The notes under the pieces were generated by a model. The model had not been told where the DNA came from. It searched no databases and was given only the letters and a program-made list of their open reading frames with translations. Made by a program: the position numbers and the translations under genes. DNA of 64,000 nucleotides from Capsaspora owczarzaki ATCC 30864 (lineage: Eukaryota > Opisthokonta > Filasterea). Below, in pieces: positions 2,284 through 40,252 of the stretch. Numbering within the stretch: the stretch's first letter is position 1; every line of letters begins with the position of its first letter. The stretch is taken from assembly GCF_000151315.2 (NCBI RefSeq), contig NW_011887300.1, forward strand, positions 490,329 through 554,328, in the 5' to 3' direction.

Positions 2284-2663
2284 ATAATCCAGGGACCCAC
2301 AAAAAGCAAACTTTGCAACAAACAAAAAACAGCTAGACAAACTGCTTGCAATGTAGCGTACACAAGGCACTGTACAACCAAAAAAAATGTGAGCTCTGAA
2401 CAAGAGTGTGAATATGTGGTTTTTGTCCGGTCGCTGAAAGACTGCAACAAGAAAAGCAAAACAAAAAATATGAAAACTCGGACAATATGACTTGTCGTGA
2501 GATGTACAGCTGGATCTTTTTTTTCTGTGAGAAAATCATGCGCGTCAATAAGGGGGGAGAGAGATGGGCATTCGCTTTGTTTTGATGCTTGTGTTGATGT
2601 TGATGTAAACATTGAATGAAAAGCATTTTGCCCACAACATAGCCAGCAACCAATCGCTCGCAT
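2284..2663. other. Convergent intergenic spacer
   Basis: This AT-richer spacer lies between two genes that converge. It contains several A-rich runs on the + strand and must hold both 3' UTRs. No gene or structured RNA was seen. Confidence 0.5.
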
Positions 2664-4810
2664 TCACTGCGCACAAACACGTTCGATATCATCCACAAGT
2701 TTGGGAATCATTGCAGTCAAGACTTGAGCTGGCAAACCGGATCGGAAGAGAATGTTGTCCTCGACACGGATGCCAATGCCGCGTGCTCTGTAGAGGCAGA
2801 TGAAGGGAGGTTTTGGATGTCAGGCACACAATCAAGCTCTGGGCATGGGTGGGACTGGTGAAGACTTACTCTGGCACAAAATGCTCGCCAAACTCGTCAA
2901 TGTACAACCCAGGCTCGATCGTAAAGACCATGCCGTCGACGAACGTCTCAAACTGGCGGATTTCAGAAGTGTCGTGCGTGTCCATTCCAAGAAAGTGGCC
3001 AATGCTGTGTGGAAAGAGCTGGCTTGCAAGCTAAAATGCGAACAGAATGAGAACCGAGTCAAACACTTTCCCCCGCCCCCGAAACAAAGGAATCATCCTC
3101 GTTACAGGAATCAGCTGCTCGCGAGTAGAGTAAAGGTGGCGAAATTGAGGTTGGATGATCAGTGGAACAAGCTTTTCAAGCTCTTGAATCGTAAAGTTTC
3201 GGGCATGTCGCGAGAGATCGGCAGCCCGGAGGCCAGCATTTCGTCCCAAATCGCAAACCTGATGCAGAAAAGGCGGAAACAATGAGTGATCAATATGATC
3301 AGGATGTTGCACGCGGCGCGAGACCCTTGAGCGTACCTCGATGCATTTCTGATTCACCGAAAGCACTGCTTCGTAGACGGCTCGCTGGATGGCGTTAAAC
3401 TTGCCAGAAACTGGCCACGTCCGCGATACATCCGAGCAGTATCCAAAGTACTCGCTGCCAAAATCGACCAATACCAACTCGTTCGCACTAAAACGGAACA
3501 AACCCGCCGCACAACAGACGTCAGAATACTGTAAGCAAGACAAAAGTTCAAAGAGCCCCCCCCCCCTACCGTAATAGTTGATCCTTTTGCACGTAATGAA
3601 GGATGGTGGCACGAGCACCACCAGCGACGACTGGTGGGAAGGACAGGTGGAAGGCTCCTCGTGAGATTGTCGCTGCTTGCATTGCAGCAAACACTTGGTA
3701 CTCTGCCACCCCTGGGCGAGTCGCTTGCATTCCCTTGAGAGTTCAAAGCGAAGAAAGCGGTGAGTATTGAGCACAGAAAAAAAACTGACTTCACAAAACG
3801 CCGCTCGACCGACATCATCTTACAGCAATAAAGGAATGGTAGGCGATCTCGGCTGCCTTGCGCATCAACACGAGCTCAGCGGGAGACTTGACAGCGCGCT
3901 GAGCATGCAAGAAGGGTTGCAGAGGGACTTGACGATGCTCGGGAAAGGACTTGATTGCCGAATCAAACACGCTCGCCACTGGCTGTGGGGAGCTGGCCGA
4001 GTCCGACGAGGGCGCAATGACGTGTGTGCATTGGCCCAGTGCTATTCGCAGATGCATTGCAAACTCGCTGTTTTGAAACGACCGGTCTGCTCGAAAGTGC
4101 GCCTTGGCCCATTCGAGACCCGCACGAGGCCCGTCCCACAGCCGCGAGACGCGATCGGTTGGATTGACAAACAGGGTCATGGTATGCTCGCCTCTAAGGT
4201 TTGCCACGGCAGCCCGGAACGTGCTCGCTGGCAGTGATGGCGGGGGCGGGAGTTGCGGCAATGGCGGGAAATCTCCTTGTTTGACAAGTGAAACGCCAAG
4301 AATACTCGCGACCATCTGCGACGCGGCCGACGGAGCTTGCTTCAGTGCACTCGATAAATGTGCTTGTTGTTGCTGAGTTGATGATTCAGTGCTTGGATGG
4401 TTATTCTTGAGCTCGCTGGTCGGCGCTTGGAGCATGAGGACGGCGTCGGGCTCGTTCAGCCCAGTCAAGTACAGCATGTCTGCGTTCTGGTGGAACGGGT
4501 ACGGGATGTCGTTCGCCATCAAGTGCTTGGTGCTTCCAAACACGAGTACAAGGCTCCCGAGTGGCAGCCGGCGCATCAGAGCGCGGCGTCGCTCGGCGTA
4601 CTCGTCCGCGGGAATCCCAGGCGTGAGCTCGCCGTGCTTCATCAGGTGCGGGTGCCTGCCCGGCGACGGCTGCGGCAGCTCGGGATGAGTGTCTGCAGCG
4701 AGTCCGTGGCTGGATCTGCGCGAGTGGTGGTCGTGGTGGTGGTGGATTGGAAGCACCCTCAGTCGCGTGGCGATCGAGAATGAGCCGCGCAACATCAAGT
4801 GCAGCACCAT
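2664..4810 (-). CDS. XPNPEP3: Xaa-Pro aminopeptidase 3 (mitochondrial, ICP55/XPNPEP3 family)
   Basis: This is a metallo-aminopeptidase of the M24B family, which removes an N-terminal residue preceding proline and in mitochondria trims imported proteins. Six exons fit: 4810-3824, 3733-3570, 3487-3337, 3258-3106, 3030-2870 and 2787-2664. They join in frame to 579 residues. The N-terminal domain carries HPHLMKHGELTPGI, typical of the family. The catalytic half shows FPPVVAGG, then metal ligands Asp (VLVDFGSEY), Asp (CSDVSRTWP), His (GHFLGMDTHD), Glu (FTIEPGLY) and Glu (IRVEDNI), so all five are present. The start MVLHLMLRGSFSIATRLRVLP looks like a presequence; the longer frame begins at TTG and was rejected. 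A Gln/Ser/Pro-rich insertion interrupts the N-terminal domain. Exon 4 is the least conserved part. Identification is secure. Confidence 0.93.
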
Positions 4811-27287: not shown

Positions 27288-29714
27288 TTACTCGCGGAAC
27301 TCCAAAAACGGCTGCAGCCGCTGAGAGTGTGTGCGCGGGAGATCATACTGCAAAATAGAATCTCCAAACGCAAGTGTGATGCGGTACAGACATGTTTTCA
27401 AACCTGGGACAACCAAGCGGGCATTTTTCACGCGAAATCAGAACCAAACAAGCCAAAAAAAAAACCACTCGCAATCCAAATCAAACACACAGAACTTCTT
27501 ACAATTGCTCATTGCCAGTGGGTGCTGCCGTGACGCACCAGAACCTTGCAATCGAACGAGCGCGGCGCGGCCCTGGGTCTCAACGCTGTTCAGCAAATCA
27601 AGAAGAGACACGACGATTGGCACAATTTGCTCGCGCGACCCTCCAACGCTATCTTCGTCCAGGGCATGGCACGCAATGAATGAAAGCGCCTCGGCTGCAA
27701 ACAGGGTGAGTTGGAGCTCTGAGAAGAGAACGGCCACCTTGAGTTGCTGAGGCTCTTGCCGTGCAAACGCCGTCCATGACGACGATGCGAGCAGATTGAC
27801 AAACTTGTACCACCGAGCCCACGCTAGCCCGACCAGGAACGACGGCCGTAGCTTGGAGAAGAATGACTCGGATGGCTGCTGCGGTTGTGCGGCTGGCGGC
27901 GGCCTTGTTAGTTGGAAGGGCGATGTGACTTGCCGTGGTGGGGGCACGGGCGCAAGCAAGAAGCGTGGCGCTGGTTGCGACGACATCCCCTGCCACAGTT
28001 CTCGCAGCCAACGACGAGGCGTTATGATGGAGTTGATTAGCGCCCAGAGTCCAAATGGCTCCTCTGTCGAAAGCAGGAGACTGGGTTGCGCTGGGGCGGC
28101 TGCGGCGGCCGTTTCAGGAACCTCGTCAAGCGCGGCCACCTTGGCCGCAAACTCGTCAAAGTCGTCGTTGGCGCCGTTGCTCGACATGGGCAAGGTAGCG
28201 GCCAACTTTGACGACAGCGTGGCAAGAACAAGCGTGCATTCGGCCACCAGACGCTTGATGAGCGTCGGGCCAGACGACGTGCTGCCAAGCGATGCGGAAG
28301 GCTGCCCCGCGCGGTACACAACCTCACGAGCCTCGTCCGACTGAGACAATTGCCGAACAAGATCTTGGAACGCCAAAAGACGCAAGAGAGCGCGAGAATT
28401 GTCCGCCGTCGCGCGGCCAATACCATCGCCCGTCTCGTTGGTAGGACGGCCACCGGGTGTCGGCGCAGGGTTGCGTGCAGCGGCCAAACCCGCCAAAATG
28501 GTCTGAGATCGCTCGCTGGCATCCTGCGCGACAAGCGGGAAGGGCAGCGGCTGGCTGAGGAAAATGTTGAAGAGTGCTTGCCGAAGATTCCACAGGGTGA
28601 CGATCGGCGTAAGAACGAGCAGCCATGTTCGCAGGAAGAGGAGAGGGCTGGAAAGGGTCATGTGGTCCAGGACAACTCCGACGGAGCCGTCGTGGCCCAG
28701 AGGCACGTAGGCGGCGCTGTACATGGACAGGTACCGGGGGACGAAGCGAGTGCTGAAGAGCAGGCTCAGAATCGTGCGACCAAACAATCCAAACAGCAGA
28801 TACACACCCAACAGCACGAAAAAGGTCACACCAAGTGCCTCGAAAAAGCTGGTGCCCAGGCTCGCCTTGATGGCAAAAATTCGTCGCTGGGACAGCAGCG
28901 GGAATGTGACCTGCTGCTGCTGCCTGGAGAAAAACAAAAAGGTGTGCACCAGGCCGAGCAAGAACGCTGCAAAGAACAGCAGAAGGCTGTTGGCGTCGAG
29001 GGTGTGATAGTACTCGTGCACGGCATCCAAATCCTCGATCGACTGCGGCTCCGGGTTGGACGTCTCAACCACGCCGTGCACAGTGATGGCCTCGACCAGG
29101 CGATCGTCAACAAGAGGCACATCCAACGATGCATAAAACATCCACGCAGTCACAATGGCAACAACACCATGCAGTAGGGCAAACGCCAACCGCGCAGGGT
29201 GGAGCAAGAGGGCCGTATTTCGCAGCGTTGTCGACCGAACCGTCGGTGCCACTGCCACGGTCATTGTGCAGCAAACGCCAAATGCAAGTGCAAGGTGAGT
29301 GCGTGCGATTACATGATAGAGACGAGAACGGACTTGCTTACCAGAGAACAGCGACAGCTGGACGGTCGCCAGAGCTGCGTTGAGCACGATCGCCGCAATG
29401 CCGCCAGCAACGTATTCGATTGGGAACAGGCTCGCCACCGTGCGGACGATGCTTGCGATAAACCCACCGACGGTCGCAAAGAAGGGCAACTGGAAGCAGA
29501 GGAGGCCAACCAGCTGGCTCAAGAAGCGCGACTCGAGCGAGATGACGCCCGCGATCGCATCATAGATGGTTGCCCATGGGTACAAGGGGCCATACTGCCA
29601 CAGCACGGCGTTCACAGCGAGGCACAGCGGCGCCATGAGGCAGGCAAACCAGACGTAAGCGGCAATCGCGCGTGCGTAGAGCACTCGCTCTGTAAACCAC
29701 CGCGTGTCTGGCGG
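27288..29714 (-). CDS. NDC1: Nucleoporin NDC1 (TMEM48), 5' exon uncertain
   Basis: NDC1 is a multi-span protein of the nuclear pore membrane that anchors the pore and helps insert it (in fungi also the spindle pole body). The main exon runs from 29714 to about 27499. After a GTAAGA donor, the last exon (about 27409-27288) gives CLYRITLAFGD and HSQRLQPFLEFRE, the conserved NDC1 C-terminus. The N-terminal half holds about six membrane segments (for example AIAAYVWFACLMAPLCLAVN, LLLFFAAFLLGLVHTFLFF, LGVTFFVLLGVYLLFGLFG). The soluble half has LLAFQDLVRQLSQ, a family landmark, and an ordered end (LFAAEALSFIACHALDEDS). The first amino acids come from a separate exon: an acceptor CTCCAG lies just upstream of 29714, and a candidate ATG at 29882 (MER) would need a weak GTTTCA donor, so the start is unresolved. 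Confidence 0.85.
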
Positions 29715-30735
29715 CTGGAGACTAACCAAGCAGCAACGGCAAGGACAAGGACAAGCACATGAGTGAGTGAGTGAGTGAGTGATGACGATGCGATGGTCTG
29801 GCCAGTGGGAGCGACACAATGATGGAGACGATCAAGATCTCGTCTTTTTTTTTTTTTTTTTTTTTTTTGAAACCCTTTCCATTGTATTTCCCCAGTCAAA
29901 GTCGAGGTGTTGTCGCGACTCGGGCTTCTGAAGCCTCGCAATGTAGTAACAAGTCTCGATGCAAGTGCACAAGAAGATGATCATGATGATGATGATGATT
30001 TTTTTGCTGTGTAAACCTGAAGTCTGGAACTGAGGACATGGCGTTTCAGAAGTGAATCCGCGTTCCGAATGCGGACAGGTTGAACGTGTCCCGATTTTTT
30101 TTTTCTAGGGATTTCAATCCTACTCGCCGCCACTTTCAGGATGCATGTAGTTATATTCGTAGGTTGGACGAAACGAGAGAAAGGAGCATGAAGTCGAGAT
30201 GCCATCTCAGGGGGCTCGGTTGAAAGTGGGCGGCGGGGTTGATTGCCGATCTGAGCGTATCAGCCTCCAGACCCGCCACCTAAATTCGTCCCACCTACAA
30301 TATTAAGCAAACTCATGGGCAAAAAATGGGCGGACCAGTCCCGTTTGGTCATAGGGCTGACAGGGCGACATTTACTCCACATGTGATGAAACCGAGTGAA
30401 ATCAAGTCTCGCCAATCCCGTTCGCCTTCTTTCCAAGTGCACAAATAACTCACACAAGCAAATTAGAAGTGCAACGGTGTCAGGACCCGAGTTTGCGTCC
30501 GTCCAGCCGGCGAGGCTAGCCGGTGGTAGTTAAAGAAGATTTAGAATATTCTGATATATTTGGATACTGTGAAATAGTGGTCATTGCGCATTTTGTATCA
30601 ATCAATCGACCTTACCTGGCCAATAGTTCTAACGCCCAACCGGAGTCTCACAAACGGGGGTCGAAAAAGCCAACAGGACGGTGCTGTGTCATGGGCAACT
30701 GGGGATTGTCGCGGCAGACAACAATAAAGCTGAGC
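29715..30735. other. Region upstream of NDC1 and 3' of the NTPase gene
   Basis: This region probably contains the missing first exon and promoter of NDC1. It carries a CACTCA tandem, a 24-base T run (29845-29868), and an ATG/ATC-type microsatellite near 29980-30000. From about 30000 to 30735 no gene was seen; base composition is more AT-rich and less ordered than in the flanking genes. Confidence 0.45.
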
Positions 30736-33700
30736 TTAGAACATCGGGCACAAACAGGCAATGTCATCACCAATCAGAACAATGACACGGTCATTGCCGT
30801 TGCGAACGTCCTTCGCCCATGCTCGCGTTGCGTTGCCACTGAACGCCAACACAAGCACAAAATCATAAACTCCGCCGAGTGCCGAGCGGTCCAGATCGGC
30901 CAGAGTCCGAGCAATATCCGAAGCCCGTTGCGATGCAGACGGCAGCTCTTCCCGAGATGTGCTCACATCCTTCATCTGGAAGAGGATCATCACGGGCCTC
31001 GCGCCACCTGCGACGCGTCGCAAGGCAACACGCCCATCTACGCCGGTTGTTGAATTTGCGCACTGAAACACAGGGTGGCTGGGACCCGCACCAAGTATGT
31101 CCACTGCATCCCATGTGACCGTATCAGACGCCGAGGCATTTGTTGAGAAAGACAGGGTTGCAGAAGGACTTTGGGCGGAATGGACAACGTGGCGGTTGGT
31201 GATGAACTGATGCTGCTCTTTGAAAAATTCAAAACGTTGCGCCTCGGCCATGTTGCCAGGGTTTCGAAGATCAAGCTCGATATTCAAGAGGCCACGTGGC
31301 GCACTGCCTCGCAGCGCATTGGATTGAAGACCGAGAACATGGTGAAGCCGAGGCACGGCGATGGGCGGATCGGCTTGAGGATCGCGCGCTGGTCGAGCAG
31401 CGGCCAGCAGCCATGAACGAATCATGTTCAGACGGCTGGCCACCGAAAACAGAACAAACGCCTCAAATGCCACGCCGTCGCCGCCAGCCACTCGAGGGAA
31501 TTTTGACATCGCGATTGACGTGTAAGTTAAATGGCCGCTCATAAACCGGCCCGCAAGCACAGACAGCATGGCAACTGGCATCCGGATGACGATACCCCTT
31601 CCTTCGACGCTTCGAGGGAGGTTTTGAGGGAGGTTGTCATCGAGGTTTTCATCGAGGTTTTCATCGAGGTTTTGAGGGAGGTTGTCATCGGGATAAGTCG
31701 TGACAATAATGCCACGGTGGGCAAGTGCCGCCACGGTGGTAGTACCAATCTCAGTCTCCTCAAAGATCGGAAGGTTGGCGAACGAAAGTTCAACCAAAGT
31801 CTCGAAACCGCTGGCAGTGATCATCCCCGCTGAAACATCAGGCGGGCATCGGCTCAAGACGGCAGCAGTCATGGAAGATCCGAGCATGTCGATGACACAG
31901 CTGATGTTCTGCACACTCGACATGTTGACCGAAGGGGTGAACGGTTGTTGCAACTCAGGATGTCTCTCTACCAACGTTGTAAGTAGAGCAGGAAGGCCGC
32001 CAAGGTCACGGATCAGCCGCCGAAATTCAAAGAGTTCACACCACGATGGATGAACATTCATGCTCCGGAGCAACAAGATGGAAGTGTCCAGGTCGAAGGG
32101 AACAAGGTTGACCGGTATTACTGTGTGGCGCGTGATATTAAACGTCATGCCGCTGGATGCAGTACTGGTGAGAAGCAAAATCACAACGGCTCGGTCTTGG
32201 CGGGTATTGTACCCAACGATCTCTTGGACTGCCTGCTTGAGCCAGTGATTTGCGTCCTCAGACGTCAGTACCGGAGACATGGCTGGCGCCATCAGTTGAA
32301 ACTCGTCAATGTGGACAAAGATCAATACTCGCTGCTGAGCGAGCTGCGGGTTTTGCTGCCGATAGCGTGCCACGATAGCGTCGAGAACGACATCTGTGGA
32401 GAGCGTAGACCAAGAGGCACAGAAAATGCGGTTGCTCGCGGCGCGTGTCAATGATTGGCCGCAAAGACCACGAGCGGCCAGCCGAACAGGGAGAATCAGA
32501 TGAGAATTCGATGTAACACGATCAGCCGGGAGAATCGCATCACCTCCATTGAAGTCGATGAAGAGTTGCAAGGAGTTCTCAAGGAGGGAAACGAGATACG
32601 TTTGCTGCTCAGGTGTGAGAGTAAGATTCTGTTGAGGCTGACGCAGAAGGTTGAGAACCTCGGAGATTGCATGCTGGCCGAAGGTTGTTTTGCCGCAGCC
32701 ACTAATTGTGTTTACGCGGAGCACAGGAAAGTTCCCCCGCTCCGTACGAACGCCGAAAACCGACCTCGCGATGTAGCGCAACATGTGGTTGGTCGCAACA
32801 GGACGGGCTAGAAATGTTCTGGGCGCAGGAGCTTGAGCAGGCAGTTCAAGTGGAGGAAACTGTCCTTCGTCAACGGCCGCTTTCAGAGCGGCGATGGCCT
32901 CAGCAGGATCATTGTCTGATGTGCGACATTTCAAGCAAAGACAAGCCAAACGTGTTAGAAATGCCGAAAACAACCCAACCAACTCGCCAACATCCCAGCG
33001 AAGGCTCACAAGGGGGTAGCTCCCGCAGGTTTTGTATCAGTTGCTCGGCCGCTTGTCGCCGTCTCTTGGCTTCTTGTAGCTGTCGCTCGGCTTCTTGAAG
33101 CTGTCGCTCGACTTCTTGTCGCTGTCGCTCGGCCTCTTGTCGCTGCCGCTCGGCCTCTTGTCGCTGTCGCTCGGCCTCTCGTTGCCGTCGCTCGGCCGCT
33201 TGTTCCCGTCGCTCGGCCTCTCGTAGTGCTTGGTCAAAACGAACCCTGTCGTCAAGCTCTGCGTTGAGCGCTTTGAGCAATCTGGCTCCGACTCTGTTGT
33301 ACTCGACCAACTCCTCATTTTGGTTGGGCACTCCCAGCTCCTGGAGTGCAGCTGCGGCATCAGCTTTCTGACTCTCAGTGACCACGACTTCTGCGCTGGC
33401 TTGACAACGTTGCAAGATCTGCTGGAGGGCAGCGCGCTGGGCAGGTTTGTCGGAAATGGAAGAAATCGAGGTCAAATCGACATTGTCCAAGACGCCAAGA
33501 CATGCGGCCAATGCTTTCAACCGCTCGCTGTCAGCAGAATGCAACGGAAGCAACGTCAGTCAACTCAAATCAAAGCATCAAGACATCTACAGCATACCTG
33601 AAACTTTGATCGAGAGCAACCTGACTCAGGTGACGAGCAAAAGCACGCAAACAAACAAACAAACAAACAAACAAACAAACATAAAAGCAAGCGAAAACAA

Positions 33701-34016
33701 AAAAAAAGTTAGTCGTTTGGTTCGCAGTTGGTCACGGGCCCTCTCACTTGAGACTGAAAGCGAAAGCCATTCACACAACCGCCCACAGAAGAACGGAGGG
33801 GGGTTTGGAAAGACGAGACGGCACGGAGAACAAAGCGAGAGAGAGAAAAAAAAAGCAAAAAAAAAAAAAAAAAAAAGCGGTTGTGCACGCGGTTGCCATT
33901 ACAAGGCCAACTCGAGGGGCGATGAAGACGAGACTCTGACTGCTCCTTACCGCCTTGCGAGTAGCTGCTTCGTCTTCGTCGAGCCCTGCTTCCGTTGTTG
34001 TACGCCTCAACGCCAT
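30736..34016 (-). CDS. Crinkler/RHS-like P-loop NTPase with coiled coil and nuclease-like C-terminus
   Basis: Four exons fit: 34016-33951, 33620-33598, 33527-33010 and 32915-30736. Their summed length is an exact multiple of three and gives 928 residues. After a short N-terminal part, residues about 75-200 include a long charged coiled coil built of EAERQRQ repeats. The NTPase domain has a Walker A (NTISGCGKTTFGQH, about 280) and Walker B (VLIFVHIDEFQLM, about 410) and ILLLTSTASSG beyond. The last ~200 residues contain a Glu-bearing helix (GDGVAFEAFVLFSVAS) and VDGRVAL followed by VMILFQMKD, which resembles the D...(E/Q)xK core of restriction-endonuclease-fold enzymes. This layout is known in Crinkler (CRN) and trypanosomatid RHS proteins. 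The typical CRN header was not recognised. Coding minisatellites lie in both the coiled coil and a DDNLPQNLDEN segment. The gene stands isolated. Function is unproven; the homology call rests on motifs. Confidence 0.65.
31610..31695 (-). repeat. 15-bp coding minisatellite in the NTPase gene
   Basis: Near-identical 15-base units encode repeats of Asp-Asp/Glu-Asn-Leu (for example NLDENLDENLDDN) in the linker before the C-terminal domain. Confidence 0.8.
33050..33235 (-). repeat. 21-bp coding minisatellite encoding a heptad coiled coil
   Basis: Tandem 21-base units encode the seven-residue repeat R-Q-E-A-E-R-Q with few substitutions, so one DNA unit equals one coiled-coil heptad. Confidence 0.85.
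33648..33682. repeat. AAAC microsatellite
   Basis: About eight tandem AAAC units lie in an intron of the NTPase gene. Confidence 0.9.
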
Positions 34017-35254
34017 GTGATACCAAGGAAGGCGCAGTCCCGAACACAAGAAGAAGAGAGGGGGAGTTGAAAAAAAAAAAAAAAAACTCGAAATCAGCTC
34101 GCTTTCAAGGGAAACGAGTAAAGAGATTGAATGACTGAGCCAAGCTTATCAGATTTGGATCCAGCATCTCATTGACAGCAATTGCTCAATTGCTCAAGTC
34201 AAAATCAAAGTATACAGTACGGTTGAGGGAAGCGCGTACCGCATTTGGAACAAACTTGGCAAAGACGAGGCCGCTCAGTAATACAAAGTAAAATAAAATC
34301 AAAAAAGAAAGCGCAACCAAACATGTTCGAACCCAGTAGCAAAAAGAAAGCAAAAAGCACCAAGACGCTTGGTCGAGACAGCTCGAAGTGAACGCTGGGC
34401 GAAATGGGATTCGATCGCAGGCATGAAACTACACGTTTTCATCCTCCTCCAATCGCGCGTATCTCGATTGGACAATATGTCATTATATCTCAGAATACTA
34501 CAAGTCGAGAAAAGAAGCACGAAACACCGCGAAAAGACATGCAAATGGTGAGGACAAGCTCACTCGTTTCGTGTTATCGCCTGTCCTGTCGCTGCATTGG
34601 CCTCTTTTGCCCCGCTCGTTGCTTTGAATGATACTAGAATGAGTGGTCGTCCTAACGCCATGTTGTATTCTGGTGTGCGGGGCGCGGTTTCTGTCATTTT
34701 GAAGCGAACATTCGCGAAAAATGAAGCCGGCCGCAGGCGTTCTTTGAACACTATGTTTCCGTGCTGTTACTGCCGCTGGACTGGAACTGCTGCGACATTA
34801 TTTGAGCATAACTACCTGACAATGAATGCGCTAATCACCACCCTTCACAATTTTTATCGCAGGCCGGTATCAAGCTCGCGGAAGTGATACCCATCGCGAC
34901 AAACAACGCTACGACCGATCAACGCTCGTTTTTCAGCGCACACCGCACGCTTGACGTCAGCGCTCACTTGTATTACATTTGAATGATTTTTGACACGCAT
35001 TGGTGTGCAGCGGGGACCGAGTGCCGCAAGACTGCCAGCGGTACAAGTAAGGGAAGTGACCGATTTGAGCTCACTTCTGTTGGCAACAGAGCGCTTTGCC
35101 AATCGCTCCAAAAGTTACACACACCAATACTGAGCAATGGGCCAACCACTGACAAGATCTCCACGCTTGCTACACTTTTCTCCCCACTCACTCTTCTCTT
35201 TGTTTTTTTTTTTTTTCATCAGATCCCTCTTTGACTGAGAAGGCGGAAACGCAA
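34017..35254. other. Intergenic region upstream of the NTPase and DHX37 genes
   Basis: Divergent spacer of about 1.2 kb. It contains A runs at 34067-34086 and a T run just upstream of the helicase start. A frame from an ATG at 34639 (MSGRPNAMLYSGVRGAVSV) has an even composition but no recognisable relative and no codon bias like its neighbours; it was not annotated. Confidence 0.4.
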
Positions 35255-36237
35255 ATGGCCAAAAACCGAGTTGGATTCAACGCGAAAGGCCGCCAAAGCA
35301 AGCGCACCTCGGGCGCGTCGGTGCTGCCCGGGTCGGCGATGCCAGCAGTTGCACACGCGTCCAAGAAGCACACTGGTACCAGCGTAGGCGCAGCGGGATC
35401 CACTGCACCGGCTGCACAGGCCGCCAAAGTGGCGAGCGCGCTCAAGCTCCTGTCGCCTGCGAACGCCTCGACCGCGACCGGCTCGCCAAGCGCCCAGAAA
35501 CCACTCACAGGCACCAGTGCCACCCAAAGCAAGCCGCACAGCGCGACGAAAGCTGGCGCCAAGGCCAAGCGCGCCGCCGCCGCCGCCGCTGCAGCTGCGC
35601 CACACGTGGTCCTCGTGGACGTGGATGCGCTTGCTGGAGGCTCCCGCGCTGTCACGTCAAGCTCAATGCAGCCCACGCACAGCGATTTGTCGGGTTCTGG
35701 GAGCAGTCTGGGCGGAGCGGCAGTCCCGATGATGACCTCGAGCGACTTTGGCACTGCTGCTGGCTCCTCTGCCTCGCTTGTGGCTATCGACTTTGATGCA
35801 CAACAGGCGGATGGCAGCAATGCACTTGTGATGCCAGGGTCAAGAAAGGCCAGCAAACGCGCGGCGGAATCGCAGGACAATGACGACAGCAAACGGCCGC
35901 GCCTGTCCACCAAGCAGCGACGGCGGCTCGAAGCCATTCTCAGCAAGAAGCAGAAGGCTGCGCAGCGATCGGCCTTGCTCGAGTCACTGGCCATGTCTGC
36001 GTTGCCTTCTGGCCAACTCAACTTGTTGAAGTCGTCATCCAAGCTCGGCCACTCAAAGGAGACGACCAAACAGCTGCTCAAACGCCAGCTCGTTGAAGAG
36101 CGCGTTGGTCTCTCGTTCGCGGCCCAAGACGCACAGGAACTCGGCCCCAAGGCATCCCTGTACGTTCCGCGTGTGGCCGCGGGAGAGGGCAGCGACAATG
36201 ACAGCGGCGACGACGGCGATGATGCTGATGATGATGA

Positions 36238-36285
<48 letters not shown>

Positions 36286-39200
36286 CACTCCGCGGGCTTT
36301 CAAAGCGAATGGGGCTGCGTTCAATACTTCTTCGTCCATGAGTTTGGCTGCGCTGGCGAATTGGGCGGCCGCACCGCAGACCCTGTCCCCTGCAGCTCAA
36401 GCCGCCGCTCGAAACAGCCTCAAAGGTGCTCCGGCCGCCGTGAAAAAGGCACCAGTCACCGGCACTACTGCCAATGGCAGTGTCAGCAACGCGCAGCGAG
36501 ATGTCCAACGAAAGGCTGAAATGTCACGTTTGCAGCAAATGTCAATGAAGCTGAAGGCTCCTTCGTCTGCTGCCGCCGCTGCTCCACCGCCGGTTGAGTC
36601 ATCGTCATCCTCCAGCTCTTCCAGCGAGGAAGATGAAGATGAGGACGAGGAAGAAGCAGCACAAGACGACGCAGAGGAGAAGAAGATGGCCCAAGTTCGA
36701 ACAACAACAGCAACAACGTCGCAGCCTGCCGCTGATCGTTCCATTGTAACACCAACAACAACAACAACAACAGCCACAGCAACCACAGCAACACCACCAC
36801 CAGCAGCAGCACCCGCCGAAGCCACACCAGTCCCTTCCAAACCCGCCTTTTACGTGACTGTCAAGCGCCCCGAACACATTCAAGCAGCCCGATTGCAGCT
36901 TCCGATTCTTGCAGAGGAACAGCGCATTATGGAAGCCATCACGGAAAACGACGTGCTCATCTTGTGCGGTGAAACTGGCTCTGGCAAAACCACCCAAACA
37001 CCCCAATTCTTGTACGAGGCAGGCTACGGCAGCCTCAACCCCAAGAGCCCCCACCCAGGGCTGATTGGAGTGACCGAGCCTCGCCGAGTCGCCGCTGTCA
37101 GCATGGCCCGGCGCGTTGCTGGCGAACTCTGCTTGTCAGAGCGACAGGTGTCGTATCAAATCCGCTACGAGGGCACCGTGTCAAACGACACGCGCATCAA
37201 GTTCATGACGGATGGTGTGCTCTTGCGTGAGATTGAGAACGACTTTCTCCTTCGGAAATACTCGGTCATTATCATTGACGAGGCTCACGAGCGCAGCATC
37301 AACACGGACATTCTGATTGGCCTGCTGTCGCGCATTGTTCCGCTCCGCGCAGAGCTTTCTCGCGAGCAACTGCGCCAACCCCTTGCCGACAAGGCGACCG
37401 CACGACTCCAACCGCTCAAACTTGTCATCATGTCTGCAACACTGCGTGTTGAGGACTTTACGAGCAACGCACGGCTCTTCCCGTCCGGACCGCCTCCAGT
37501 CTTGTCTGTCGACTCGCGCCAGTATCCCGTCACGGTGCACTTTAACAAGCGGACGCCGCCCAAGGACTATGTGACTGAGGCGTTCAACAAGGTGTGCAAG
37601 ATTCATCGCCGGCTGCCTCCAGGTGGCATTTTGATTTTCGTGACTGGCCAGCAGGAAATTGCCGATCTCGCCCGCAAGCTCCGCGACGTCTTCCCAGCCA
37701 AGGCCAGCAAGCGGGCACTGGAGCGTCTGCGGGAGGCGACCGAGCACGGCCGTTCCGTTGCAGCCACCGCCGCGGCAGCTCGAGCGATTGCGAGCAGCCC
37801 AGCTTCTGCCTCTGCTGCTTCTTCTTCGACCAAGGACGAGTCAACCTCTGGAGACCTTTTCGAGTCCGGCACTGGCGAGAACGACATTTCACCCACTGAA
37901 CAGCTGGCCGGTGGTGTGGCGGAGCTGATTGACCAGATGCAACATCGCCCAGCAGCTCCAGGCGGATCTGCAGCTGCCAAGGCCTCGCCCAGTGTGTCTC
38001 GACGCACCGAGGATGACTCCGATGCCTCCGATGCCGACGACCAGGACGACATGGATGTTTCCAGTGGCTCGGACAACGAGTATACCAGCGACTTTGACGA
38101 CGAGGATGGTTTCGATATGGGTGACGAGGAAGACGACACGGTTGCACTGGACAATCCGTTCAGCCTTGCGAATGTCATGCGCACGACTGACTCTTCCACT
38201 AACGAAGAAGGCCCTTCAACTGTGAGCGCTGCGGACTCGGCGCCGTCGTCGGCCTCGCCGTCTAGTAGCAAGAAGCCCGCGCCTGCCCGCCGCGAAACGC
38301 TGTCTGATAACGACCTTGGCCTGCACATCCTCCCGCTGTACTCTCTGTTGCCATCGGCTCAGCAAATGCGTGTCTTCCAGGATCCTCCGGCCGGAACGCG
38401 TTTGTGTGTGATTGCCACCAATGTTGCCGAGACTTCGCTGACCATCCCTGGCATCCGATACGTCGTTGACACTGGCAAGGTCAAGGAGCGCCAGTTTGAT
38501 CGCACCACTGGCATCTCGTCATTTGCCGTCGAGTGGGTTTCCAAGGCTGCCGCGAATCAACGCGCTGGTCGTGCGGGCCGTACCGGACCTGGTCATTGCT
38601 ATCGGCTGTACTCCTCGGCTGTCTTTGAGCACGAGTTCCAGCAGTTCTCTCCGCCCGAAATCGAGCGAATGCCCATCGAGGGTCTGTACCTGCAGATGAA
38701 GAACATGGGCATTGACAATGTGGTCAACTTCCCTTTCCCGACACCGCCCGATCGCAGTGGCTTGGCCGCTGCCGAGCGCTTGCTTACAAGTCTCGGCGCT
38801 ATCGAGTCTACCACAAAGCACGTCAGCGAAGTGGGTCGCGCCATGTCGCAGCTGCCCGTGCTGCCTCGCTACGCCAAAATGCTCATGCTTGCCCGCCAGC
38901 ACGATATGCTGCCGCTGGTCGTGTCGCTCGTTTCTGCGCTGTCCGTCCGCGATCTCTTCACCTTGGACACGCAACGCGCCGAGATCATGCAGCAGGAAGA
39001 GGAAGACCAGGAAGCACAGACGGCCATGCGGCAGCTGGGCATTGCCCGAAAGTCGGCCGACTCGACTGTGTCCGCCTCCAACGCCGCCGCCGCCCGCGCA
39101 GCCATGTCTGTGCGACAGCAATGGGGCGCCATTGCCCAGTCCCTCGAGTCGGACTTGCTCGTGATGCTCGCTGCTGTTGGGGCGTTCGAATTTGGAACCG

Positions 39201-40252
39201 CCGACGAAAAGTTTTGCCTGGCACACTGCTTGCGCTACAAGGCGCTTGTGGAAGCTCGCAAGCTCCGTTCCCAATTGGTGGATGTCGTCAATGCACTCCA
39301 GCGCCAATCCGCCCCAAACCAAGCCCCGCTCAAGGCCACTGGCAAAATCAAGCCTCCCTCGCCTGTCCAGTCCAAGCTGCTCAAGCAAATAGTGCTTGCC
39401 GGGTTTGGTGACTGCGTTGCTCGGCGCAGCGAGGAGATTGCTGTTTACGGCAAAAACTCGGCCCGACTGGTGCCGTATCTCTGCTCTGCCACCGACGAGC
39501 CCGTCTTTATCCATCCGTCCAGCTTTATGCCGCGCGCCAATCCGCCGCTATTCGTCGTGTACCACGAGCTCACGCGTGCTGCTGCCAAAGCCTCCAACCC
39601 CAACCAGCAGCCAAGGCTATACATGCGCGGCGTGACGGCGATTGACCCCCTCTGGCTGCCCGTGATTTGCCCGGCGCTGAGCGTGCTTTCAAAGCCACTG
39701 GAGCTGCCCATGCCCCGTTATGACGCTGCGACTGACCGCTTGCGTTGCTACATTTCCGGCACGTACGGACAGCGCAACTGGTCCATCCCGGCGCAGGAGA
39801 TGGACTTTCCCGCAGGCGGCGAGCGATACCGCTGGTTTGGTCGCCTGCTGCTCGAGGGCAAAATCTTGCCAGGATTCGCTCAGTTTGAGCCCGAGCTTGT
39901 CAGTCGCCCCAACGTGCTAAACAAGACGTGGGCGCAGGAGCGCATTGTTTCGATTGTGCGCGCGCTCTCCGACAACCACATTGATACCAAAGCCAAACTC
40001 CTCGCCAAGTGGGAGACCGACGTGCGCTTCTTGCTGGAGCCTTACATGCTCTGGCTCCCCAAAGAGCTGCACGCGACGGTCGTGGCAAACTGGCCGTTCC
40101 GCAGCGAAACGACCGCCAAATTCCCCGTGCGCGCTCCTGCAGGTGGCAACCGGGCTCCCGTCATCAACCGCGCGTTGGAACAAATGCAACGAATGGGCGT
40201 CAACGAAGGTGGCACTGCCATGGATGTTAGCAGTGATGAGGATTCCGATTGA
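35255..40252 (+). CDS. DHX37: DEAH-box RNA helicase DHX37 (Dhr1/Ecm16)
   Basis: This is an intronless frame of 1665 residues. DHX37/Dhr1 releases U3 snoRNA from pre-ribosomes during small-subunit assembly in the nucleolus. The start at 35255 (MAKNRVGFNAKGRQSK) matches the conserved N-terminal KGRQ motif; the longer frame starts at TTG. DGSNALVMPGSRK and STKQRRRLEAILSKKQKAAQ are diagnostic of the N-terminal region. The core has Walker A GETGSGKTTQTPQF (about 573), DEAH in IIIDEAHERS (about 672), SAT in IMSATLR (about 725) and QRAGRAGRTGPGHCYRLY (about 1100). HA2 and OB-fold domains and a conserved C-terminus follow. Two large acidic or disordered insertions stand out: a poly-Asp run encoded by GAC/GAT repeats (36220-36285), and an insertion between helicase motifs III and V (about 840-1000) rich in Ser/Ala/Asp. 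The core is complete. Confidence 0.96.
36220..36285 (+). repeat. GAT/GAC trinucleotide run encoding poly-Asp
   Basis: About 20 consecutive Asp codons, mostly GAC, lie in the acidic N-terminal region of the helicase. Confidence 0.95.

Follow-up and report, generated by a model that had tools for sequence, protein, structure and literature searches.

A probable Crinkler-RHS-type NTPase-nuclease of Capsaspora owczarzaki and its family of exchanged headers and effectors

What is encoded by a four-exon gene of Capsaspora owczarzaki ATCC 30864 that joins a coiled coil to a P-loop NTPase and a nuclease-like C-terminus? The gene lies in a 64,000-nucleotide stretch of contig NW_011887300.1 (positions 490,329 to 554,328), hereafter the window, and an earlier note made from the letters of the window had likened its product to Crinkler and RHS proteins. 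We conclude that it probably encodes a Crinkler-RHS-type (CR) conflict protein, consisting of a header with coiled coil, an NTPase switch and a nuclease, and that it forms part of an apparently shuffled, genome-wide repertoire. The gene structure, paralogy, folds, sharing of headers, swaps at the DNA level and, where tested, the phase of the junction intron were all established by computation. The parts of the gene are as follows; pLDDT is the predicted local distance difference test.

30736..34016, minus strand: whole gene, four exons, 928 amino acids (spliced translation)
33951..34016, minus strand: exon 1, 66 nt, start ATG (from splice site and frame only)
33598..33620, minus strand: exon 2, 23 nt (from splice sites and frame only)
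33010..33527, minus strand: exon 3, header domain and coiled coil (translation, Pfam scan, genome search with the header)
33251..33526, minus strand: type-1 header domain, residues 31 to about 122, found also 5' of other C-terminal domains
33020..33250, minus strand: heptad coiled coil, residues about 123-199, with a Pfam match from 117 (match below cut-off and the sequence itself)
32916..33009, minus strand: phase-1 intron of 94 nt at the header/effector junction, without (TG)n
30736..32915, minus strand: exon 4, NTPase, winged-helix-like segment and nuclease (translation, genome matches, predicted model)
31924..32844, minus strand: ORC/STAND-type NTPase, residues about 227-533, P-loop 271-280, Walker B D406-E407 (model and fold comparison)
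31576..31821, minus strand: putative winged-helix-like segment, residues about 568-649 (from secondary structure; part with pLDDT < 50)
30739..31086, minus strand: PD-(D/E)XK-like nuclease core, residues about 813-928, with D829, Q849 and K851 (model, Foldseek, paralogue rows)

The exons splice to 2,787 nt, i.e. 929 codons with a single terminal stop, using donors gtaagg, gtatgc and gtgagc and acceptors ag, so the four-exon model with a length divisible by three holds. A genome search with the last exon identified 14 NTPase-nuclease loci, the window gene included, together with one fragment; these, like all our locus lists from genome searches, are lower bounds. The gene is not the lone copy that it had been taken for. 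By rough NG86 estimates the ratio of non-synonymous to synonymous substitution (dN/dS) between the window gene and two paralogues, L026 and L027, is 0.42 (674 codons) and 0.41 (666 codons) respectively, with dS 0.90-0.96. Since 13 other loci match the last exon, the header recurs and dN/dS is 0.41-0.42, the observation goes beyond chance, and it is confirmed.

The spliced translation contains all the motifs that had been picked out in the letters: the P-loop NTISGCGKTT at residues 271-280 (with T where a classical Walker A has A or G), the Walker B sequence VLIFVHIDEFQ at 399-409, and the nuclease-like GVDG...FQMKD with D829, Q849 and K851. Heptad repeats make up the coiled coil, which has a tropomyosin-type Pfam match over residues 117-199 (E 1.5e-4, under the Pfam cut-off). 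Pfam, motifs and predicted fold together support the order of coiled coil, P-loop NTPase and nuclease-like C-terminus given in the earlier note. A structure model of exon 4 was built from 11 paralogue rows; a single-sequence AlphaFold model was discarded (mean pLDDT 33.9). Comparison using Foldseek and VIA supports grouping the predicted NTPase with ORC, Cdc6, STAND and TnsC proteins. Helices and strands lie between NTPase and nuclease at exon-4 residues 365-446, with pLDDT < 50 in 409-438. Among viral proteins the model's best fold match is A0A481Z7L9 of Pithovirus LCPAC104, which is uncharacterised (E 4e-10, 18% identity).

Exon-4 residues 611-725 (protein 814-928) have block pLDDT values of 60-91, with nine of the 12 blocks at 79 or above. 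The modelled order of elements is strand, D626, strand, strand carrying Q646-M-K648, helix, strand in exon-4 numbering, so that the model supports a PD-(D/E)XK topology with a D-x19-QxK motif in the last ~110 residues. Foldseek matched MspJI (4f0p_B, rank 49, E 3.5e-3, probability 1.00, 114 columns, 19% identity), no other restriction endonuclease being named in the 50 matches listed. The structural comparison therefore bears out a nuclease-like C-terminus through its topology and a moderate match to MspJI, while its extent is about 813-928 rather than the 700-928 proposed; a different nuclease fold is possible. The outcome that the earlier note had named as refuting its reading did not arise.

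The header links this gene to others. The type-1 header comprises ~90 amino acids, and a 111-residue exon-3 query identified 17 places in the genome; 11 loci carry a match to the header at 43-52% identity, with a further four at 27-32%. It is present in the window gene and five NTPase-nuclease paralogues, and also 5' of other C-termini. These are DUF5898 in L053 and L055 (E 1e-30 and 3.5e-18), a second P-loop NTPase in L042, L047-L049 and L051 (NTPase II, recognized by mutual blastp matches), and an AAA_22-like NTPase in L054 (E 3.5e-6, barely above cut-off). DUF5898 is a member of the Pfam protein-kinase clan, as stated in an excerpt of PMC9758233. The header-1 groups match one another by hhalign at E 8e-25 to 7e-5, the weakest pair (g1a/g1d) having a probability of 63%, and in all six header comparisons none of 100 column shuffles reached the real score. 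A second header is found 5' of L031, L035 and L038, with an hhalign probability against type 1 of under 1%. L033 and L034 have a third upstream segment in common at the DNA level; no header was found for L030 and L037. Genes with a divergent form of the type-1 header, L054 among them, are clustered at C1:2717575-2856812.

To count pairs we required the header to be upstream of the effector on the same strand with a gap < 3 kb. The input was 25 header-1 places (one partial C1 match excluded), 16 header-2 places (a match at E 0.9 excluded), 14 loci encoding NTPase plus restriction endonuclease (NTPase-REase; fragments of a single gene joined), 25 NTPase II loci (from 26 matches, two of which belong to one gene) and 11 DUF5898 loci (three below cut-off excluded). 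This gave 29 pairs, covering five of the six combinations of two headers and three effector classes. Header 1 lies directly 5' of NTPase-REase seven times, NTPase II five times and DUF5898 five times; the corresponding numbers for header 2 are three, nine and zero. No header and effector within 4.5 kb of each other are in the wrong order or strand, and in three of the five DUF5898 pairs the header and kinase matches have equal open-frame lengths (691, 813 and 812 amino acids). Neither header type accompanies 4/14 NTPase-REase, 11/25 NTPase II and 6/11 DUF5898 loci. The 11 kinase-like DUF5898 loci over cut-off are spread over contigs C3, C4, C5, C7, C8, C9 and C11, five with a type-1 header upstream, and DUF5898 had no match in any of 14 control genomes.

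How did the same headers come to stand before different effectors? The effector exons of L031, L032 and L033 are 83-89% alike in DNA, yet upstream they have header 2, header 1 and the third segment respectively. L032 (= L045) has 1.2-1.4 kb of DNA, upstream part and header, in common with L047 and L048 at 90-91%, and with L049 at 87%, but these three have NTPase II C-termini, unlike L032. Between L048 and L051 the C-terminal DNA is 95% alike and the headers only 85%. In the compared pairs the similarity starts or stops in or beside a (TG)n array; the breakpoints are approximate, because the BLAST low-complexity filter acts at such arrays too. Arrays of at least eight units are found at the junction of 13 loci (L031, L032/L045, L033-L035, L037, L038, L042 and L047-L051), L052 also carries one, and in 14 ten-kb loci there was one such array outside the junctions. 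The arrays are not universal, since the window gene, L026-L030 and L036 lack them; the window has no (TG)8 or (CA)8 array. The header donor is in phase 1 in 12/12 tested cases, the window gene included (donors picked by eye, with the frame of L033 and L034 less sure), and the junction acceptor in 3/3 measured. Headers and effectors have thus been swapped at the DNA level, the exchange falling in a junction intron whose start is often a (TG)n array. A larger interpretation can be offered tentatively, at a little under an even chance: a unicellular relative of animals would hold a combinatorial arsenal of conflict proteins, with at least two unrelated headers and at least three effector classes re-paired, in frame, by recombination at a constant phase-1 intron with 5' (TG)n. 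It would have its own recombination-prone junction, and both headers and junction would be distinct from those of oomycete Crinklers.

We read the window protein as a probable nucleoside triphosphate (NTP)-gated nuclease of biological conflict. The lineage-specific, probably helical header and the coiled coil would serve recruitment and oligomerisation, gathering copies at a site or partner. The ORC/STAND-type NTPase would be a nucleotide-dependent switch or DNA-loading module, changed by NTP binding, and the winged helix possibly touches DNA. Once the switch is set, the C-terminal restriction-endonuclease-like domain would cut nucleic acid. In the repertoire two or three unrelated header types would be joined to several effector types, new pairs probably arising where the intron that separates header from effector exons recombines. 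The role could be attack on other cells or internal defence; we infer the enzymatic activity, the target and the context of conflict, whether with other organisms or with invading DNA.

The best-surviving alternative overlaps with this. The protein could act in cell-autonomous immunity, as an intracellular STAND-type sensor of invading nucleic acid or virus that fires its own nuclease, with headers as recruitment modules and no delivery to other cells. Bacterial Avs proteins are STAND-type sensors that trigger their own nuclease, and Avs3 is the best Foldseek match of the model, further matches including plant NRC proteins, Apaf-1 and NOD2. No N-terminal signal peptide is evident by eye, and for plant CR proteins passages of PMC5289972 suggest a possible action on intracellular DNA. 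However, likeness to Avs reflects a common NTPase fold and says little on function, and Pfam found no C-terminal repeat sensor, none of the 11 families listed for the window protein up to E 10 being of that kind. We regard this alternative as possible, though rather doubtful.

Could the family instead be decaying without present function, the window copy being merely among the least damaged? Two close paralogues, L028 and L029, share a frame change at the same codon (around residue 532/534), either inherited from one broken copy or exchanged between them. Between its header and effector exons L029 (C15:142500-152400, oriented 2511-3692) carries an inserted Tc1/mariner-like transposase frame, named by eye. 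By the same rough method dN/dS is 1.2 for L026/L027, and 0.56-0.80 in four pairs from two other subfamilies. Against decay, no exon of the window copy is interrupted and all its motifs are present, its dN/dS against two paralogues is 0.41-0.42, and the effector exon is open in 9/14 loci. Decay is accordingly unlikely. Elsewhere L039 (C11:1209700-1219600) is a remnant that retains no more than the final ~40 residues; the next 1.5 kb match the 3' flank of L028, ~60 kb off on the same contig, at 97.8% identity. Long (TTG)n repeats of differing lengths occur soon 3' of the stop codon in L026, L027 and L029.

A self-mobile or transposon-derived element, with NTPase and nuclease as a TnsC/TnsA-like pair moving their own gene, is more improbable still: similarity among the scattered copies L026-L029 is 90-98% across up to ~3.5 kb, VIA finds a TnsC-like fold and passages of PMC5289972 suggest a link of CR C-termini to transposons, but copy boundaries viewed by eye have no terminal inverted repeats or target-site duplications (an autonomous transposon was rejected on this basis), (TTG)n or comparable repeats contain or adjoin the 3' boundaries, introns are retained and several copies lack catalytic residues.

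The likeness to Crinkler and RHS proteins is partly supported. Architecture and fold agree with the layout set out in the earlier note, but the corresponding profiles do not match the window protein. An hmmscan with the full-length protein gave no Crinkler header PF20147 up to E 10, no Pfam family matches the header up to E 1, and PF07999 (RHSP) has no match up to E 10 in either the window protein or any of the 11 exon-4 rows, although HMMER filters may hide weak matches. The protein is therefore not a Crinkler in the narrow sense. Nor is occurrence outside oomycetes, chytrids and trypanosomes the surprise it had seemed, as CR proteins are reported from free-living eukaryotes and plants in the passages of PMC5289972. 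In the literature searched for Crinkler, RHS or CRN with Capsaspora, the passages found refer to crinkler solely to report its absence from an aphelid, and among the papers listed for holozoans more widely none carries the Crinkler phrase. Sequence searches of the PDB using the exon-4 protein, paralogue, nuclease and header profiles and L053 gave nothing significant, and PADLOC gave weak single-row matches only (TRIP13 E 0.013, AbiN E 0.065). Scans of prokaryotes and IMG/VR, which find only near relatives, matched patterns in 34, 20 and 121 stretches with no relative confirmed, and tblastn found none in plasmids or phages.

Several points weigh against a CR-type conflict nuclease. With no profile match at the level of sequence, CR kinship rests on fold and architecture. 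The model, from 11 rows, has a mean pLDDT of 68; the MspJI match is moderate and ranks 49th, Foldseek not printing the aligned model range, and the VIA matches span mainly model residues 24-408, hardly covering the nuclease. There is also a distant similarity between NTPase II (L047) and the window NTPase (blastp E 4e-4). No partner of the three classes is near 8/25 header-1 places (six in the C1 cluster) and 4/16 header-2 places. A catalytic position is altered in 6/11 rows: D is replaced by N in L026, L027 and L033, and K is missing in L026, L027, L030, L037 and L038. D and QxK are both retained in the remaining five (the window gene, L031, L032, L034 and L036). The Walker B glutamate is lost in L026 and L027, both of which are open, and its position is D in L036. 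Nuclease activity is thus not essential to every member, and the family is an apparent mix of enzymes and pseudo-enzymes.

The genomic setting differs between classes. Within 25 kb of a known contig end lie 17/25 NTPase II, 4/14 NTPase-REase and 0/11 DUF5898 loci, and the ~25 NTPase II loci look like a subtelomeric effector-type family. Four of the 14 NTPase-REase loci are within 20 kb of an end, a zone making up 2.8% of those contigs (binomial P 5e-4, duplicates not being independent). The window gene is 522 kb from the nearer end, in a window of 48-60% GC. Two of the three neighbouring reading frames scanned have ordinary Pfam matches, the third having none:

27438-29831, minus strand: Ndc1-type nucleoporin (Pfam match)
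35153-40252, plus strand: DHX37-type helicase (Pfam match)

These two neighbours are ordinary, but genome-wide the gene is not solitary.

Crinkler and RHS proteins are mostly discussed as effectors of plant pathogens. Their occurrence as a modular set with headers of its own, in an organism that seems to be a close unicellular relative of animals, has a bearing on their role (weapons, immune nucleases or both) and on the mechanism by which headers and effectors are shuffled. With its (TG)n and phase 1, the junction opens that mechanism to test by comparing strains. If true, the combinatorial arsenal would amount to a eukaryotic system for shuffling modules, prone to recombination at a junction of its own.

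How does the protein compare with known systems? Unlike Tn7-like TnsC, it has no transposase partner beside its gene, and no element ends were seen. It has the NTPase fold, and perhaps the winged helix, in common with STAND NTPases (Avs3, Apaf-1, NLRs), but differs in having a C-terminal nuclease and no detected repeat sensor domain. The restriction-endonuclease fold is common to its C-terminus and MspJI, whose active site would be of the D-QxK type, a point not found in the literature passages searched; unlike MspJI, the window nuclease is fused to an NTPase. No SRA-type Pfam match was found in the window protein, though MspJI-type SRA-like domains may escape Pfam. An excerpt of PMC3874153 places the nuclease of MspJI in the Mrr family. 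The closest parallel is the NTPase-helix-turn-helix-REase class of CR proteins, i.e. Phytophthora CRNs and trypanosome RHS, which likewise have a header, a P-loop NTPase, a possible helix-turn-helix and a restriction-endonuclease-like domain. The clade name CDC6/ORC-STAND-type for CR NTPases reportedly comes from Zhang et al. 2016. CR proteins are also multi-copy and modular, with a header common to several effector types, including a kinase-type class. The present family differs in its lack of PF20147 and PF07999 matches, its junction intron often with (TG)n, and an organism not known as a plant parasite or trypanosomatid. Its architecture and fold fit a CR-like family with its own headers and a distinctive junction.
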